Program-made: the position numbers and the translations under genes
Assembly: GCA_018822365.1 (NCBI GenBank)
Contig: JAHJKL010000048.1
Location: 1-41,047 of the forward strand
Source of the DNA: Candidatus Margulisiibacteriota bacterium
Lineage (GTDB): Bacteria; Margulisbacteria; WOR-1; O2-12-FULL-45-9; XYB2-FULL-48-7
Reading direction: 5' to 3'
Length of the DNA: 41,047 bases
Notes under the pieces: generated by a model
Told to the model about the DNA's origin: nothing
The model's database searches: none
What the model saw: only the letters and a program-made list of their open reading frames with translations
Part shown: one piece after another, positions 31,576 through 40,914 of the stretch
Layout: every line of letters starts with the position of its first letter
Numbering within the stretch: position 1 is the first letter of the stretch

Positions 31576-32595
31576 ATGTTTAAACCAATTTATAGGATTA
31601 CCCCATACCTATTGAATTTGATCGATGAAGCGAGCTCGCTCAAGACCTGGATCGAGCTAGCGCCGCTTCAGCTCGCCTGGCTTCCGCTGATGCAAAAAGA
31701 CGCCCGGGCGAGACAAGCCCACTTCTCAACTTCGATCGAAGGGAATGCCCTGACCCTGCCAGAGGTCAAGGCGGTCGACCGGGGAGAAACAGTCGGCCAT
31801 TCGCGCCAGCACGAGCTGGAAGTCACCAATTATTTAAAAGCGATGATCTGGATCTCTCATAACACCAAAGCGAATATCGATGAAAAGCTGGTCTTTAATC
31901 TCCACCAGATCATCACTCACGGCCTGCTAGACGAAAAAAAGAGCGGCTGTTATAAAACCAGGCAAAACTATGTGGTCGATGACCATAAGATCAGGGTCCA
32001 TACCCCAACCTCTCCATCTGAAACCCCGGCCGCGGTCGCCGATCTCCTGGCCTGGGTCAACAGCAACGAAGCCAAAAATCTACACAGCATTCTGGTTTGC
32101 GCGATCTTCCACCACCGCTTTGTTTCGATCCACCCGTTCAGCGACGGGAACGGCCGGCTGGCCCGCGCCATCAGCACCCTGATCCTCTACCAGCGCGAAT
32201 TTGACCTCCACCATATTTTTAGTCTTGACGAATTCTTTGCCGGCGAACTGAAACGCTACTATCAAAAGATCCAGCAGGCCAGAGGCCTCGACTACGACCT
32301 GACCCATTGGATCGAATACGTCGCTGAAGGGGTTGTCGCCACGCTGAAACGGACCAAAAAGCGGATCGAAGACCTTCAGGTCACCTCCAGTTATCCGCTC
32401 GCCATCTCCAGGCGCCAGGAAGAGACCCTTCGCCTCCTGCGCGACCGCCGCTCGGTCCAGGTCAACGATCTGATGAGCGAACTGAAGGTCTCCCGGGCCC
32501 GGATCAACCAACTCATCGCCCCGCTGATCAAAGGGGGGATTATCATCAAGGAAGGAGAGAGTCGGGCGACCCGCTACAAATTAAACATCCATTAA
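31576..32595 (+). CDS. Fic family protein with N-terminal inhibitory motif and C-terminal winged helix
   Basis: A 339-residue Fic protein. The catalytic motif HPFSDGNGRLAR (186-197) is complete (HxFxxGNGRxxR), so AMP (or other NMP) transfer to hydroxyl side chains is expected. The autoinhibitory helix is present N-terminally (STSIEGN, 51-57, with E55), making it a class II Fic. Residues about 275-339 form a winged-helix DNA-binding domain (VNDLMSELKVSRARINQLI). This Fic-wHTH layout is common on bacterial chromosomes, often as a self-regulating single gene. It uses an ordinary sigma-70 promoter, unlike the genes around it. No adjacent antitoxin is needed because the inhibitor is internal. Confidence 0.92.
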   Translation: MFKPIYRITPYLLNLIDEASSLKTWIELAPLQLAWLPLMQKDARARQAHFSTSIEGNALTLPEVKAVDRGETVGHSRQHELEVTNYLKAMIWISHNTKANIDEKLVFNLHQIITHGLLDEKKSGCYKTRQNYVVDDHKIRVHTPTSPSETPAAVADLLAWVNSNEAKNLHSILVCAIFHHRFVSIHPFSDGNGRLARAISTLILYQREFDLHHIFSLDEFFAGELKRYYQKIQQARGLDYDLTHWIEYVAEGVVATLKRTKKRIEDLQVTSSYPLAISRRQEETLRLLRDRRSVQVNDLMSELKVSRARINQLIAPLIKGGIIIKEGESRATRYKLNIH

Positions 32596-36018: not shown

Positions 36019-37014
36019 ATGGACTTAATCGCCGAGATCTGGAACAAAGCCAAGCGCCTCAATAAAACGATAGTCCTCCCCGAAACCGAAGACGCCCGGA
36101 CCCTGAAAGCGGCCGAACTCGCCGTTAAAAGCAAGATCGCTAAAATTATCTTGATCGGCGAAGCCGACAAGATCAAAAAGACCCCCGGCGCCGGCGACGT
36201 CGACCTCTCCGGCATGACCATCGTCAATCCGCTCGAGCATCCCAAACTTGATAAATACATCCAGGTATTAAAAGACAAACGGGCCGCCAAAGGAATGACG
36301 ATCGAAAAAGCGCGCCAGCTTCTGACCAGGGACTTTCCATATTTCGGAGCAATGCTGGTCGACCAGGGGGAAGCCGACGGCATGGTTTCCGGCGCGACCC
36401 ACACCACCGCCGACACTCTCCGGGCGACGATCGACTGTATCGGCAAAGGGACCGGACAATCGATCATCTCCAGCTATTTTGTGATGATCCTGCCGGACAA
36501 GACCTTTGGCGAGGAAGGGATCCTTTTTTACGCCGACTGCGGCGTCGTCCCCAACCCGACCGCGGAACAGCTGGCCGATATCGCCATCCAAACCGCCGAC
36601 CAGTTTGTGAAGCTCGTCGGCCGCGAACCACGGGTCGCCATGCTCTCTTTTTCGACCAAAACTTCGGCGGTCCATCCGGACGTCGATAAGGTCATAAACG
36701 CGACTAAGATCGCCAAAGAAAAAAAGCCCAACCTTCTCCTTGATGGAGAGCTTCAGCTCGACGCCGCTATTGTCCCGGAGATCGGCTCCCGTAAAGCGCC
36801 GGGGAGCATCGTCGCCGGTCGGGCTAATGTTCTTATTTTCCCTGATCTTGATGCAGGTAATATCGGTTATAAACTAACCCAGCGGTTGGCTAAAGCCCAG
36901 GCTTTCGGGCCAATTTTGCAGGGGGAAGCGAAACCGGTCAACGATCTTTCCCGGGGTTGCAGTGTAGAAGACATCCTCAATGTTATCGCGATAACCGCGG
37001 TCCAGGCACAGTAG
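36019..37014 (+). CDS. pta: Phosphate acetyltransferase
   Basis: A 331-residue Pta of the short type, interconverting acetyl-CoA and acetyl phosphate. Family motifs: [46 protein letters not shown] and [20 protein letters not shown]-like residues (here [14 protein letters not shown]). AckA is not adjacent. Seven bases separate it from the DUF362 gene. Phosphate butyryltransferase is less likely given length and motifs. Its product would feed acetate or acetyl-phosphate metabolism in a fermentative lifestyle. Confidence 0.95.
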
Positions 37015-37021
37015 CTTTTGC

Positions 37022-37442
37022 ATTTTTGATCGTATAGCAAGCGACATCCGAGCCGGCAATTAATCTTTTTTGAACGCGTAAAACGGCCGAAACTGTTTTG
37101 TCCGGATTTTGGCTCATGCCTTCAACACAGACTTTTTTGGCCTAATTTTAATTTACCTGCGCGCCTTAACAGATCGGTTATCACCGCCTCCGCTACCCCA
37201 GCCTGCTCACCCAAATCCTGGCCGTTTTCTTTGGCTTTTTGAAATAAAGCGGCGGCTTTCAAGCGGCACTCGATCGCTCCGGGCTTGGCGCGGGCATAAT
37301 CGCAGACCCAGGCGGCAGGTCGCTTTAGATATATCCGGGCTGCAATAGCCGCAGGCCGGGCAGGACTGGATCCACGTTTCCATAGTTGAGCGGTACATTT
37401 CGGTCGGCCTGGCATCCAGGTCCGGCGAGCAAAAAAAACAGC
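37022..37442 (-). pseudogene. Remnant of a zinc-ribbon protein (DUF2225-like)
   Basis: Three coding blocks in three different frames on the minus strand. The first (37442 to about 37310) has CFFC, then METWIQSCPACGYCSPDIS, a CxxC...CPxCG zinc ribbon. The second (about 37316 to 37130) reads AAWVCDYARAKPGAIECRLK and ends LLRRAGKL. The third (37117 to about 37022) reads NPDKTVSAVLRVQKRLIAGS and DVACYTIKNA. Together they look like one bacterial zinc-ribbon family member, broken by a deletion and two frame changes. The family name is a weak recollection. It lies between pta and the HNH-RecQ gene, in an eroded zone. Confidence 0.5.
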
Positions 37443-37461
37443 TTGACGAACCGAGCAGATT

Positions 37462-39378
37462 TTAGTCAAGGGCTAGGAGATGGGAGGGGCTAGGCTTGCT
37501 CTCTCTGCCGCCAGGGCGTCTATTATTTAAAGCTTGTTTTATGCAAATATTTCTGCAGCAATTATCACAACACTTCGGTGCTACCGGAAGAGCAACAAGA
37601 TTCGCCTGGTCAAAACCCTTTCTTAGCGCGCGTACCAGGTGTTTAAACCCGTCGATGAGACGAACAATTAACCGACCGATCCCATCCGTTACTCCGTTTA
37701 AAATAGTGACGTCCCCGTAATATGAAAGCAAGAACTGCCGGCGGCATTCTTTCGTACTTACATACTCGACCAATTTAGCCAGCTCGTCATATCTCATTTT
37801 TTCCGCTTGCCCCAGATCCCGGTAATCGTTATAAAGGTTTTTATCCGACTTGATCGCTCGTATTGTCCCGTCGCTCTGATCAAACGACACATAACCCCTT
37901 TCGCACAACAACTCTCTGGCAATCTTATACTTCTCTCGCTCATACTGGTCATGGGCATAGCACTTTTCAATTTCCTTATCATTGGCTAACCCATCGATCG
38001 AACATCCTACTGCGGAACTATAAACTCGCTTAATATCGGCAATATTAACGCTTTTTCCGATTAGATAGACCTGCTTGCTTTCATTACCCTGGTCATACAA
38101 TATTACACTCTCAACCTCGGCACCATTCCTACCTGCCCGGCCGCTTTCCTGATAATAACAATTTATCGACTCCGGCAGATCGTAATTAACAATATAGTCA
38201 ATATCCTGGATGTCTATCCCCATACCGAACGCCTTGGTGGCAACCATTACGGTTTTCGTGCCGTAAATCGCATCATAGTTTTGGTTATTCTGTTTCGCGC
38301 CCATTTTTCCAACATATTTGACACTCTCGATCCCGCGGCTTTTTAACAATGCGCGAACCTCATGGACGGTTTTTTGCCAGGCACAATAAATTATCCCCTT
38401 TTTGCCGTTTCGCGCAATAATATATTCTACTAACGCGGCCTGCTTGTCCGTCTCATGGCGATAGCGATTGACTCGATAATAGATGTTCTTTCGATTAAAC
38501 CCCTTGATGAACGTATTGGGCTTGCTCATGACCAGTTTATCCCTTATCTCCGCCTGCATGAGCTTGTTCGCGGAAGCGGTGATCGCCAGGATGGGGATCG
38601 GCCCCAGGGCTTGCCGAACTTTAGCTATTTTGGAATAACTTGGCCTGAAGCCCAGCCATTCCTTGACACAGTGCGCCTCGTCGACAACGATCAAATTGAT
38701 CTTGATCATTCGCAATTGTTCAATGAATTCCTCCGACAAGCGCTCCGGCGCGATGTAAAGCAGTTTAAAATACCCTGCCGCGACCATAGCCAGTCTTTTT
38801 TCTCTTTCTTCCTTACTGAGATCGCTGTTGATATAAGTAGCCGGTATATTCTTTCTGATCAGGGAAGTCACCTGATCATGCATTAAACTTTTGAGGGGAG
38901 AAAACACCAGCACGATCCCTGTTTGATATCCCAGGGCAGGCAACTGGAAACAAAGTGATTTCCCTGCCGAGGTGGGCATGACGAGCATTGTATCCTTGCC
39001 TTTTAGTAGGCTTTCGATCGTTTCCTTTTGGCCTATTTTAAAATCGCTGTAGCCAAAATAGCTTAAAAGGTAGTAAAGATCAGAAAACTTATTATCAATC
39101 AGACCTATGTGCCCAAGGAAGCGCCGGATCTTCCTGTTAAGGAAGCGAAAGAATCGTTGACCAAGAGTGGCCTGGACCTGGGGGTGGATAAGACAATGAC
39201 ATTTATTACAAAGCGTAATTAAGTTTGATAACTCGTGAGATCCGCTTTCTGAAATAGGGATTATATGATGAACATACAGCAGGCTTTTTTCACCGCATTT
39301 TTGGCAAGCATGCTGGTCTCTATTTTTAACTTTGGCGCGTATTTCTTCCCAATTACTGGGATACTTTTTTGACAACAT
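37462..39378 (-). CDS. HNH nuclease-RecQ helicase fusion
   Basis: A 638-residue fusion. Residues 1-66 are an HNH domain: CxxC at C25/C28, the catalytic HH at 37-38, N52, and C57/C60 with H61 and H65 (TLCNKCHCLIH). A basic linker (about 68-95) leads to a RecQ-type SF2 helicase: motif 0 with Q117, Walker A TSAGKSL (136-142), DEAH (233-236), HCVKEW, and motif VI ESGRAGRNG. The RecQ zinc subdomain has C545 and KCCDNCC at about 602-608, with about 55 residues between them, longer than usual. No HRDC domain follows. DNA nicking or cleavage coupled to unwinding is expected. It carries a sigma-28-like element upstream, on the minus strand, and lies next to a macro-domain pseudogene. Confidence 0.85.
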   Translation of the reverse strand: MLSKKYPSNWEEIRAKVKNRDQHACQKCGEKSLLYVHHIIPISESGSHELSNLITLCNKCHCLIHPQVQATLGQRFFRFLNRKIRRFLGHIGLIDNKFSDLYYLLSYFGYSDFKIGQKETIESLLKGKDTMLVMPTSAGKSLCFQLPALGYQTGIVLVFSPLKSLMHDQVTSLIRKNIPATYINSDLSKEEREKRLAMVAAGYFKLLYIAPERLSEEFIEQLRMIKINLIVVDEAHCVKEWLGFRPSYSKIAKVRQALGPIPILAITASANKLMQAEIRDKLVMSKPNTFIKGFNRKNIYYRVNRYRHETDKQAALVEYIIARNGKKGIIYCAWQKTVHEVRALLKSRGIESVKYVGKMGAKQNNQNYDAIYGTKTVMVATKAFGMGIDIQDIDYIVNYDLPESINCYYQESGRAGRNGAEVESVILYDQGNESKQVYLIGKSVNIADIKRVYSSAVGCSIDGLANDKEIEKCYAHDQYEREKYKIARELLCERGYVSFDQSDGTIRAIKSDKNLYNDYRDLGQAEKMRYDELAKLVEYVSTKECRRQFLLSYYGDVTILNGVTDGIGRLIVRLIDGFKHLVRALRKGFDQANLVALPVAPKCCDNCCRNICIKQALNNRRPGGRESKPSPSHLLALD

Positions 39379-39402
39379 ATGCTTAAGCCTTGCCTCCCCT
39401 CA

Positions 39403-39430
39403 TTATCCCCACTATTTAGCCTAAATTTCA
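39403..39430 (-). promoter_or_regulatory. Sigma-28-like promoter of the HNH-RecQ gene
   Basis: Minus strand: TGAAATTT (39430 to 39423), 12 bases, GGGGATAA (39410 to 39403). Leader to ATG 39378 is 24 bases. It is the only minus-strand member of the set, which argues against a simple strand or repeat artefact. Confidence 0.55.
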
Positions 39431-39518
39431 ATATCTATATAGTGATTTTTGGCTTTATAATTTAAATATTATCTCTTTTCAGCCTGATCCCAGCCTCCCC
39501 AATTCTATAAATCCCCAT

Positions 39519-39838
39519 ATGCCCATTGAGCTGATCCAGGGCGACATTACCACGCTGTCAGTTGATGTCATCGTCAACGCCGCTAACAAGACTCTCCTGT
39601 GTGGGGGCGGAGTGGGACCCATTTTTGGGTGGAAAGAAGGGAGGGACGAAGCGATCCTAACCGGTTGCTATCTTAATTAATTTAAGCTGGCCCAAGAGAA
39701 CGGCTTTAAAAGCCTAGCCTTCCCCGCCATCGCCATCGGAACTTATGGCTTCCCAATAGACCGGTCGGCTTGAAGACATGACCCACCAACTGAAAACGAT
39801 CAAAAAGCATCTAGGGGAACTATGTTGTTGGTGGAAAT
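39519..39838 (+). pseudogene. Degraded macro-domain protein
   Basis: The reading starts MPIELIQGDITTL (ATG 39519) and continues with VDVIVNAANKTLLCGGGV, the ADP-ribose-binding start of a macro domain. The next stretch jumps to KEGRDEAILTGCYLN, so about 60 internal residues, including the usual GAIHxxAG region, are missing. An in-frame TAA follows, after which FKLAQENGFKSLAFPAIAIG and TYGFP, the second family signature, continue in frame to a TGA. A frame change then gives MTHQLKTIKKHLGELC. No functional product is likely. A TATAAA lies just before the start. It is divergent from the HNH-RecQ gene. Confidence 0.8.
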
Positions 39839-39850
39839 AAAAATAAGTGG

Positions 39851-39926
39851 CGGGCCCGAAGGGATTTGAACCCTCGATCTCCTGCGTGACAGGCAGGCAT
39901 GTTAAACCAGGCTACACCACGGGCCC
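39851..39926 (-). tRNA. tRNA-Asp (anticodon GTC)
   Basis: A full cloverleaf on the minus strand: acceptor GGGCCCG with CGGGCCC, D-arm GTAGCCTGGTTTAAC, anticodon loop CTGTCAC (anticodon GTC), T-loop GGGTTCAAATCCC, discriminator G. CCA is not encoded. A TGTTATAAT promoter lies 31 bases upstream. Its 5' half and upstream flank are duplicated at 40472-40538. Confidence 0.95.
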
Positions 39927-39957
39927 ACTTATTTAATAGCGGGAAATCAACCTGATT

Positions 39958-39966
39958 ATTATAACA
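39958..39966 (-). promoter_or_regulatory. Extended -10 promoter of tRNA-Asp
   Basis: TGTTATAAT on the minus strand (39966 to 39958), 31 bases before the tRNA. The duplicated copy keeps a similar TGATATAAT at 40553 to 40545. Confidence 0.5.
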
Positions 39967-40010
39967 GATATGAAAATTATTGGGAAGACAGATAAAATAA
40001 CGGTTAATTG

Positions 40011-40265
40011 TTAAATGTAGTTCTTAGTTGTTATTAATGATTCTATGAATTTGCGGCTTTTTCTCCTTTTCAGGCAAGATTCACGTTTTCTGGCCTCACT
40101 ATTTGTCGTATAACTCTCTGAATAGACAATTTCAAGCGGAATAAGCCCCTTTGTGCTTCTTATCTTACCGGCATTATGTTGTCTTAATCGCTTCTCAAGA
40201 CAATGCGTAGCCCCAACATAATACTTGCCATTCTTTTTACTTCTTAGGATATACATAAAAAACAT
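40011..40265 (-). CDS. GIY-YIG nuclease-fold protein (UPF0213/YhbQ-like)
   Basis: An 84-residue single-domain GIY-YIG protein: MYILRSKKNGKYYVGATHCL gives the first strands (GKYYVG in place of GIY-YIG), with the following ERKL-like Arg in KRLRQHNAG, and EARKRESCLKRRK holding the conserved Glu/Arg helix. Such short proteins have DNA-nicking potential but mostly unknown roles. The start may be at M1 (40265) or M4 (40256). It lies between the intact tRNA-Asp and its broken duplicate, so the duplicate flanks it. Confidence 0.85.
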   Translation of the reverse strand: MFFMYILRSKKNGKYYVGATHCLEKRLRQHNAGKIRSTKGLIPLEIVYSESYTTNSEARKRESCLKRRKSRKFIESLITTKNYI

Positions 40266-40304
40266 GATAAAAAACAGCTCATAAAGGATGATAGTTTGGG
40301 ATTT

Positions 40305-40389
40305 TCCCGACTCACATTATTTTAAAATAATTGTGGAACAGTCGGGATCCCGTCGGTTTCACATCATCATATTTTAATGTCCGACGGGA
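40305..40389. mobile_element. Bipartite palindromic insertion element 1 (85 bp)
   Basis: Two abutting imperfect palindromes. The first (40305-40347) runs from TCCCGACT to AGTCGGGA around an AT-rich core with CACA/TGTG. The second (40348-40389) runs from TCCCGTCGG to CCGACGGGA. Ends are TCCCG...CGGGA. Inserted in the T-loop of the tRNA-Asp copy without loss of tRNA bases. No ORF. Confidence 0.75.
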
Positions 40390-40406
40390 GAACCCTCGAT
40401 CTCCTG

Positions 40407-40471
40407 TCCCGATTCACATTATTAAACAATAAAATAATTATGGAATAATCGGGATCCCGCCATAGGCGGGA
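40407..40471. mobile_element. Bipartite palindromic insertion element 2 (65 bp)
   Basis: Same plan as element 1. A first palindrome (40407-40454) from TCCCGATT to AATCGGGA shares the core CACATTATT and AATAATTATGG with element 1. A second short hairpin (40455-40471) is TCCCGCC-ATA-GGCGGGA. Inserted beside the anticodon loop of the tRNA copy with no bases lost and no obvious target duplication. Confidence 0.75.
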
Positions 40472-40538
40472 CGTGACAGGCAGGCATGTTAAACCAGGCT
40501 ACACCACGGGCCCACTTATTTAATAGCGGGAAATCAAC
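40472..40538. repeat. 67-bp exact direct repeat of the tRNA-Asp 5' half and flank
   Basis: Identical to 39885-39951. It covers the tRNA-Asp D-arm and 5' acceptor strand plus 25 bases of upstream flank. Weaker similarity continues through the promoter. The repeats bracket the GIY-YIG gene. Confidence 0.9.
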
Positions 40539-40613
40539 ATAGTTATTATATCAGATTACCTGTTATACGCCCACTCTAAATTTATTAACGGGTTGTTTCA
40601 TACGATTAAATGT

Positions 40614-40765
40614 GGCCTTCAAAGGGGTTCCTTGCTGGGGCGGGGTTAGCAACAACCCTACTAAGATCAGGTTGTTGCGGGGGCATTTTGAAGGCCGGGG
40701 ATTCTTAAGGGGTATCCCCTTAAGCAGTTTCTTTCCCCCATTTCTTTGCTGTCAAAGAAATGGGG
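40614..40765. repeat. Cluster of four perfect inverted repeats
   Basis: GGCCTTCAAA (40614-40623) pairs with TTTGAAGGCC (40687-40696) around an inner GCAACAACC / GGTTGTTGC (40649-40657 with 40670-40678). Then CTTAAGGGG-TAT-CCCCTTAAG (40704-40724), then a 13-bp stem CCCCATTTCTTTG / CAAAGAAATGGGG with loop CTGT (40736-40765). No U-tract follows, so these are not simple terminators. It could be a structured RNA or a dispersed repeat. The rest of 40554-40900 shows no gene. Confidence 0.6.
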
Positions 40766-40914
40766 AAGAAACAAAAGAGAACAAAAACTAAAATACGGGT
40801 AAGGATAAAACTAAAGAAACCGGAGTTCCCCCTGACCTCCCCCCCTCAACAAGCAGGTTCAGTCGCGGGTAAAAAAGAGCCGCTTGGAAAGTGGAAACAA
40901 CTCAATTTATATTC

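Follow-up and report, generated by a model that had tools for sequence, protein, structure and literature searches.

An HNH nuclease fused to a RecQ-family helicase in a rare, horizontally spread bacterial gene family, a plausible candidate for single-gene defence

The window, that is, the whole stretch of 41,047 nucleotides that was analysed, carries on its minus strand a gene (37462..39378, ATG start at 39378) for a protein of 638 aa in which an HNH nuclease is fused to a RecQ-family helicase, as read from the open reading frame list, Pfam and NCBIfam. Judged from its sequences, the HNH-RecQ fusion is a real, rare, horizontally spread and stand-alone bacterial gene family. The same two-domain protein was found in 15 other distinct sequences, and the fusion is therefore neither chance nor a mis-assembly. 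The window copy belongs to this family, is accessory in its genome and keeps its catalytic residues intact. The fusion appears as a coherent, rare variant of the RecQ family for which a defence interpretation is plausible, and it is a good candidate for single-gene defence. By a narrow balance of probability, the gene would encode a mobile, single-chain nuclease-helicase whose most likely task is defence, directed at foreign DNA that is invading or replicating.

The HNH domain (aa ~10-66, 39181..39351, on the minus strand like all parts of the gene) was matched by Pfam PF01844 at residues 25-65 (1.5e-10) and also by HNH_5, all above the gathering cut-off. The first-pass annotation had described a complete HNH zinc domain (C25/C28, HH37-38, N52 and C57/C60), and all of these residues were present, together with H61, the last H of the H-N-H, which had been left unlisted. 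An Arg-rich helical linker (aa ~66-103, 39070..39183), common to other fusion proteins, leads into the helicase, where the full RecQ core that had been claimed was confirmed. RecA-like domain 1 (aa ~104-290, 38509..39069) holds the Walker A residues G139, K140 and S141 and the DEAH box at 233-236, RecA-like domain 2 (aa ~291-440, 38059..38508) holds Q410, R414 and R417 of motif VI, and the matches to DEAD (117-271, 2.3e-26) and Helicase_C (312-419, 6.1e-27) were above the gathering cut-off. The NCBIfam RecQ family TIGR00614 was matched with 329 bits (cut-off 220), and the scores of the housekeeping RecQ equivalogs were not reached (TIGR01389, 359 bits vs 640; PRK11057, 296 vs 1015). The RecQ-type zinc subdomain has a long loop (aa ~512-608, 37555..37845; C545 ... 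C603 C604 D605 x C607), and RecQ_Zn_bind (PF16124) was matched at 524-556, just above the gathering cut-off. The stop-to-stop frame of the gene comprises 645 codons, so the HNH part cannot be put down to a start codon placed too far upstream; this frame and the 15 other fusion proteins together rule out a start-site or assembly artefact.

The structure prediction that had been proposed for this protein was obtained with AlphaFold2 (mean pLDDT 79.8, pTM 0.72), and the HNH domain and the helicase core were confidently modelled, with a helix at 72-90 in the linker. Ahead of the zinc motif, residues ~446-508 (37855..38043) were poorly modelled (pLDDT ~51-70) as a winged-helix-like succession of helix-helix-helix-strand-strand. 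Pfam gave no HRDC match in the window protein, and because of this winged-helix-like stretch, HRDC would be the only one of the usual RecQ accessory domains that is clearly absent. The earlier remark that RecQ enzymes usually carry WH and HRDC domains, not a nuclease, holds for HRDC; it is weakened by the low-confidence winged-helix-like stretch and by the precedent of the WRN exonuclease. The top Foldseek matches of the model were all of the RecQ family, and RecQ catalytic cores (PDB 1oyw, 4tmu, 6crm) were its best solved relatives, both by sequence and by fold. The window protein shares the helicase core and the zinc motif with these bacterial RecQ proteins, which have no nuclease, whereas it has an N-terminal HNH domain, a long-loop zinc motif and no HRDC.

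A search for the same fusion in other genomes, also proposed beforehand, brought the family to at least 16 distinct proteins, the window's included, most of them from Alphaproteobacteria and others from a Chloroflexota MAG, a Mesorhizobium plasmid and two IMG/VR lineages. The first relative was a single tblastn match on the Mesorhizobium plasmid, with HNH and helicase in one piece; this copy is a full fusion of 557 aa whose gene crosses the origin of the circular record NZ_AP023260.1 (ends L047 and L048). The gene, which spans the start of this record, is missing from the PLSDB gene table. Successively widened alignments brought in further relatives. A profile scan of genome contigs gave at least 13 fusion loci, and those among the matches listed belong to Neoroseomonas, Ensifer, Sinorhizobium, three near-identical Sphingomonas, Bradyrhizobium, Afipia, Mesorhizobium, a Rhodobacterales, Tokpelaia, a Pseudomonadota MAG and a Chloroflexota MAG. 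Full-length fusions were present in two of the 383 sampled genomes, the window's genome and G131, and none was found in the other sampled genomes of the window's genus, family, order and class. The genome with the L099 fusion is the sole sampled member of its phylum. Neither of the two refuting conditions set beforehand was borne out: the HNH and helicase parts are joined in the relatives, not separate genes, and nothing points to a housekeeping role, the gene being absent from sister genomes. When viral contigs were scanned with the window protein as a single sequence, no fusions were found, and the first two-row alignment likewise gave none. Two candidates were discarded: L122, where HNH and RecQ lie in separate frames of a phage-like contig, and H43 (Pseudanabaena), where the overlapping gene carries a UvrD-helicase annotation and not a RecQ one. 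A plasmid of Sinorhizobium sojae bears, at NZ_CP023068.1:1205283-1206116, a partial relative with 62% identity to Mesorhizobium residues 230-506, perhaps a decaying copy.

The window protein is about 29-34% identical to its relatives. In the 16 aligned fusion proteins the HNH set (C25, C28, H37, H38, N52, C57, C60, H61), the helicase residues (K140, DEAH and Q410/R414/R417) and the zinc set (C545/C603/C604/D605/C607) were all invariant, and PF01844 was matched in each of the 15 family members scanned. The expanded zinc subdomain noted at first was borne out as a long-loop C…CCDxC motif, common to the window protein and its relatives and shown by none of 105 ordinary RecQs; under the strict pattern four of 18 fusion rows (one truncated) go unmatched, and the alignment shows the cysteines in all 16 proteins. 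The spacing from motif VI to CCD is 190 residues in the window protein vs 105-110 in most relatives, about 80 aa more. When a profile was made of the 15 other linkers, the window linker scored above 1000 shuffles and all other HNH tails, by a modest amount (11.9 bits). In a tree of the helicase core, which left out the HNH and zinc regions, the window protein and 14 fusions formed one group (support 92/98), and the same grouping had a support of 85 in a quick tree of 117 rows. The window member is the deepest branch of the family. A single origin of the fusions is probable; the support in these trees is good and not decisive because the branch of the window protein is long.

The setting of the gene, first described as lying beside pseudogenes and repeats, is better defined as an accessory insertion of 2,826 bp (37014..39839) between pta and tRNA-Asp, in which decayed fragments are indeed present. 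The tRNA-Asp(GTC) (39848..39926, minus strand) faces the insertion with its 3' end, 8 bp away. In a complete genome of the same genus (G001) the insertion is absent and pta runs directly into tRNA-Asp, with flanks about 89-91% identical to the window. Since the family's other genera lack the adjacency of pta and the tRNA, the same-genus genome is the only one in which the empty site is legible. Since the fusion gene is absent elsewhere, we infer a gain in the window's genome and not a loss in G001. The insertion also holds a macro-domain-like decayed fragment (39521..39830, plus strand), identified by eye from the sequence, and an uncharacterised ORF of 115 aa without a Pfam match, possibly decayed (37122..37469, minus strand). 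No integrase is left in it. The accessory promoter that had been proposed found no support, as promoter-like matches were near the shuffled expectation (7 vs 4.3 +/- 2.0).

Among 281 neighbour ORFs of the fusion genes no conserved operon partner was found. As to recurrence in defence islands, a check suggested at the outset, restriction-type neighbours were recognised at about 5 of 12 fusion loci, where selected neighbours were scanned. McrB-like AAA and McrC genes lie directly upstream of the fusion at L235, on the same strand, and an HNH gene with weak SRA/AspBHI similarity lies directly downstream at L228. At L236 there are an HNH gene matching type IV profiles, an RNase_T-type exonuclease and DUF4365; at L231, Mrr_cat, OmpA/ZorB-like and ZorA-like genes (weak scores); and at L237, a DUF4238 neighbour. 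Integrase or recombinase neighbours were present at L227 and L236. At L229, L233, L238 and L239 no restriction-type neighbour was recognised among those scanned. For the restriction-type neighbour proteins, no match was obtained in the 1.1 Mb that surrounds 67 ordinary RecQ genes, a comparison biased by queries taken from the fusion loci. Many fusion copies are on seemingly chromosomal contigs with no mobile element in view. As a separate observation, the three-gene set at L231:13657-17365 (Mrr_cat-like, OmpA/ZorB-like and ZorA-like) is possibly a form of Zorya whose effector is of the restriction type.

Several known systems resemble the fusion in part. Human WRN carries a 3'-5' exonuclease at its N-terminus, followed by a RecQ helicase with RQC/HRDC domains, and acts in repair. 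As in the window protein, the nuclease precedes the helicase in one chain; in contrast, it is an exonuclease accompanied by RQC/HRDC domains, and that of the window protein is an HNH. Cas3 couples a Superfamily 2 helicase to a nuclease for defence. The same kind of coupling has been described for Hachiman HamAB (PMC12278908). The helicase branch and the nuclease folds of both differ from those of the fusion, and HamAB consists of two proteins. McrA-like or type IV HNH restriction enzymes share the HNH fold with the family, and the mREase_IV profile gave weak cross-matches in 13 of 15 members; in the fusion proteins, unlike in those enzymes, a domain that reads modified bases was looked for and not found. 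By analogy, RqlH and PsyrT (RqlHI, PsyrTA) would be the nearest functional counterparts: in each, an effector domain is fused to an accessory helicase of the RecQ type. They have been linked to toxicity (PMC4670107) and are listed among phage-defence helicases (PMC12278908). The PsyrT profile matches residues 105-557 of the window protein. The effector of RqlH is a phosphoribosyltransferase domain restrained by the partner RqlI, whereas the window protein has an N-terminal HNH and no partner gene, and Pfam matched no phosphoribosyltransferase domain in any of 15 family members. No published description of the HNH-RecQ fusion was found in the open-access papers searched.

RecQ moves along single strands in the 3'-5' direction and opens forks and flaps, and HNH domains use a divalent metal to nick or cut DNA. 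Since a single chain keeps both active sites intact, the simplest reading is a coupled nuclease-helicase, and from it we infer enzymatic activity, a coupling of the two parts, a DNA trigger and a defence role. The motor would load on an exposed single strand, a fork or another non-native DNA structure, would then translocate 3'-5' with ATP, and would feed the duplex or the displaced strand to the HNH domain to be cut, a coupling of motor and nuclease comparable to that of Cas3 or Hachiman. A more specific version, held tentatively and at somewhat less than even chances, is a single-gene immune family in which DNA that is exposed or aberrant would be sensed by the RecQ motor and destroyed by the HNH domain of the same chain. 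Such a family would be the one-protein equivalent of Hachiman or Cas3, misfiled as DpdF. Since no partner methylase or antitoxin accompanies the gene, structure-sensing as in Hachiman (PMC12278908), or tight regulation, is suggested by analogy. The defence role had already been suggested in the first-pass annotation, and mobility (the empty site, the plasmid, the integrase or recombinase neighbours) and the restriction-type neighbours of several relatives speak for it; the neighbourhood evidence is partial and its control biased. Inclusion of the family in the PADLOC defence-protein models also counts in its favour. Against it count the position of the window copy among decayed sequence, with its own frame and motifs intact, the limited share of loci with restriction-type neighbours among those selected for scanning, and the lack of a conserved partner gene.

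Because the gene is accessory, mobile and solitary in its distribution, a conflict with foreign DNA is more likely than repair. A specialised repair or recombination enzyme, in which RecQ would unwind damaged or branched DNA and the HNH would cut flaps or junctions in the manner of WRN, is judged unlikely, at about one chance in a handful. Such an enzyme would be in keeping with the intact RecQ core and the intact zinc motif, whose fold is close to that of bacterial RecQ and human RECQL5, and the window's genome has no other RecQ. However, the gene lies on an accessory insertion and is missing both from the sister genome and from all sampled relatives of the class, most of which have no RecQ at all, and the fusion turns up again on a plasmid and next to genes for restriction and integration. 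This same mobility would agree with a cargo or competition gene of plasmids, integrative elements or satellites that attacks rivals and defends the element, not the cell, a reading that overlaps with cell defence and is rather improbable as the whole account. The Mesorhizobium plasmid copy, the integrase or recombinase neighbours, the two IMG/VR lineages and the tRNA 3' end beside the insertion are consistent with it, whereas the many seemingly chromosomal copies and the loss of any integrase from the window's insertion are not.

That the window copy is a relic without function is suggested by the decayed fragments flanking it within the insertion, yet its 638-codon frame is intact and every catalytic and zinc residue is kept despite the low identity to its relatives, which makes this quite improbable. 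Least probable, and only barely credible, is membership of the Dpd restriction system (7-deazapurine in DNA), which is implied by the name DpdF of the PADLOC profile PDLC02859. This profile has the same HNH and RecQ architecture, covers the whole fusion, matches the Mesorhizobium protein with 819 bits over 539 of 545 positions and matches all 15 members scanned. By contrast, the curated NCBIfam DpdF model (NF041063) gave the window protein 149.8 bits vs a cut-off of 550, and in the window's genome (about 95% complete) DpdA had a sub-cut-off match alone, of 27 bits vs 200. At permissive E-values PDLC02859 also matched 13 of 14 well-known control genomes, which makes the label unspecific and such matches alone a poor sign of a Dpd system. 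Because PADLOC bases each HMM on a cluster of five or more sequences (PMC8565338), others have probably come across this architecture before, at least implicitly. Defence against foreign DNA thus stays the preferred reading, and if it is true, the DpdF label, which defence-annotation pipelines may propagate, would be corrected. RecQ helicases guard genome stability from bacteria to humans. An HNH-bearing RecQ branch that spreads horizontally and lies close to restriction genes would offer a compact, one-gene model for the turning of a repair motor into a weapon.

Additionally, a second stretch absent from G001 lies on the other side of tRNA-Asp (39972-40882), with a GIY-YIG ORF at 40011-40265. 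It contains a partial copy of tRNA-Asp and its flank (40472-40556, 95% identical to 39885-39969, with a 17-bp piece at 40390-40406), itself split by short repeats. Within it, a 144-bp stretch (40605-40748) is 92% identical to the distant G001:C1:1644168-1644311 and is probably a dispersed repeat. About 5 kb upstream of the insertion, a Fic/DOC-family gene is present at 31576-32595.
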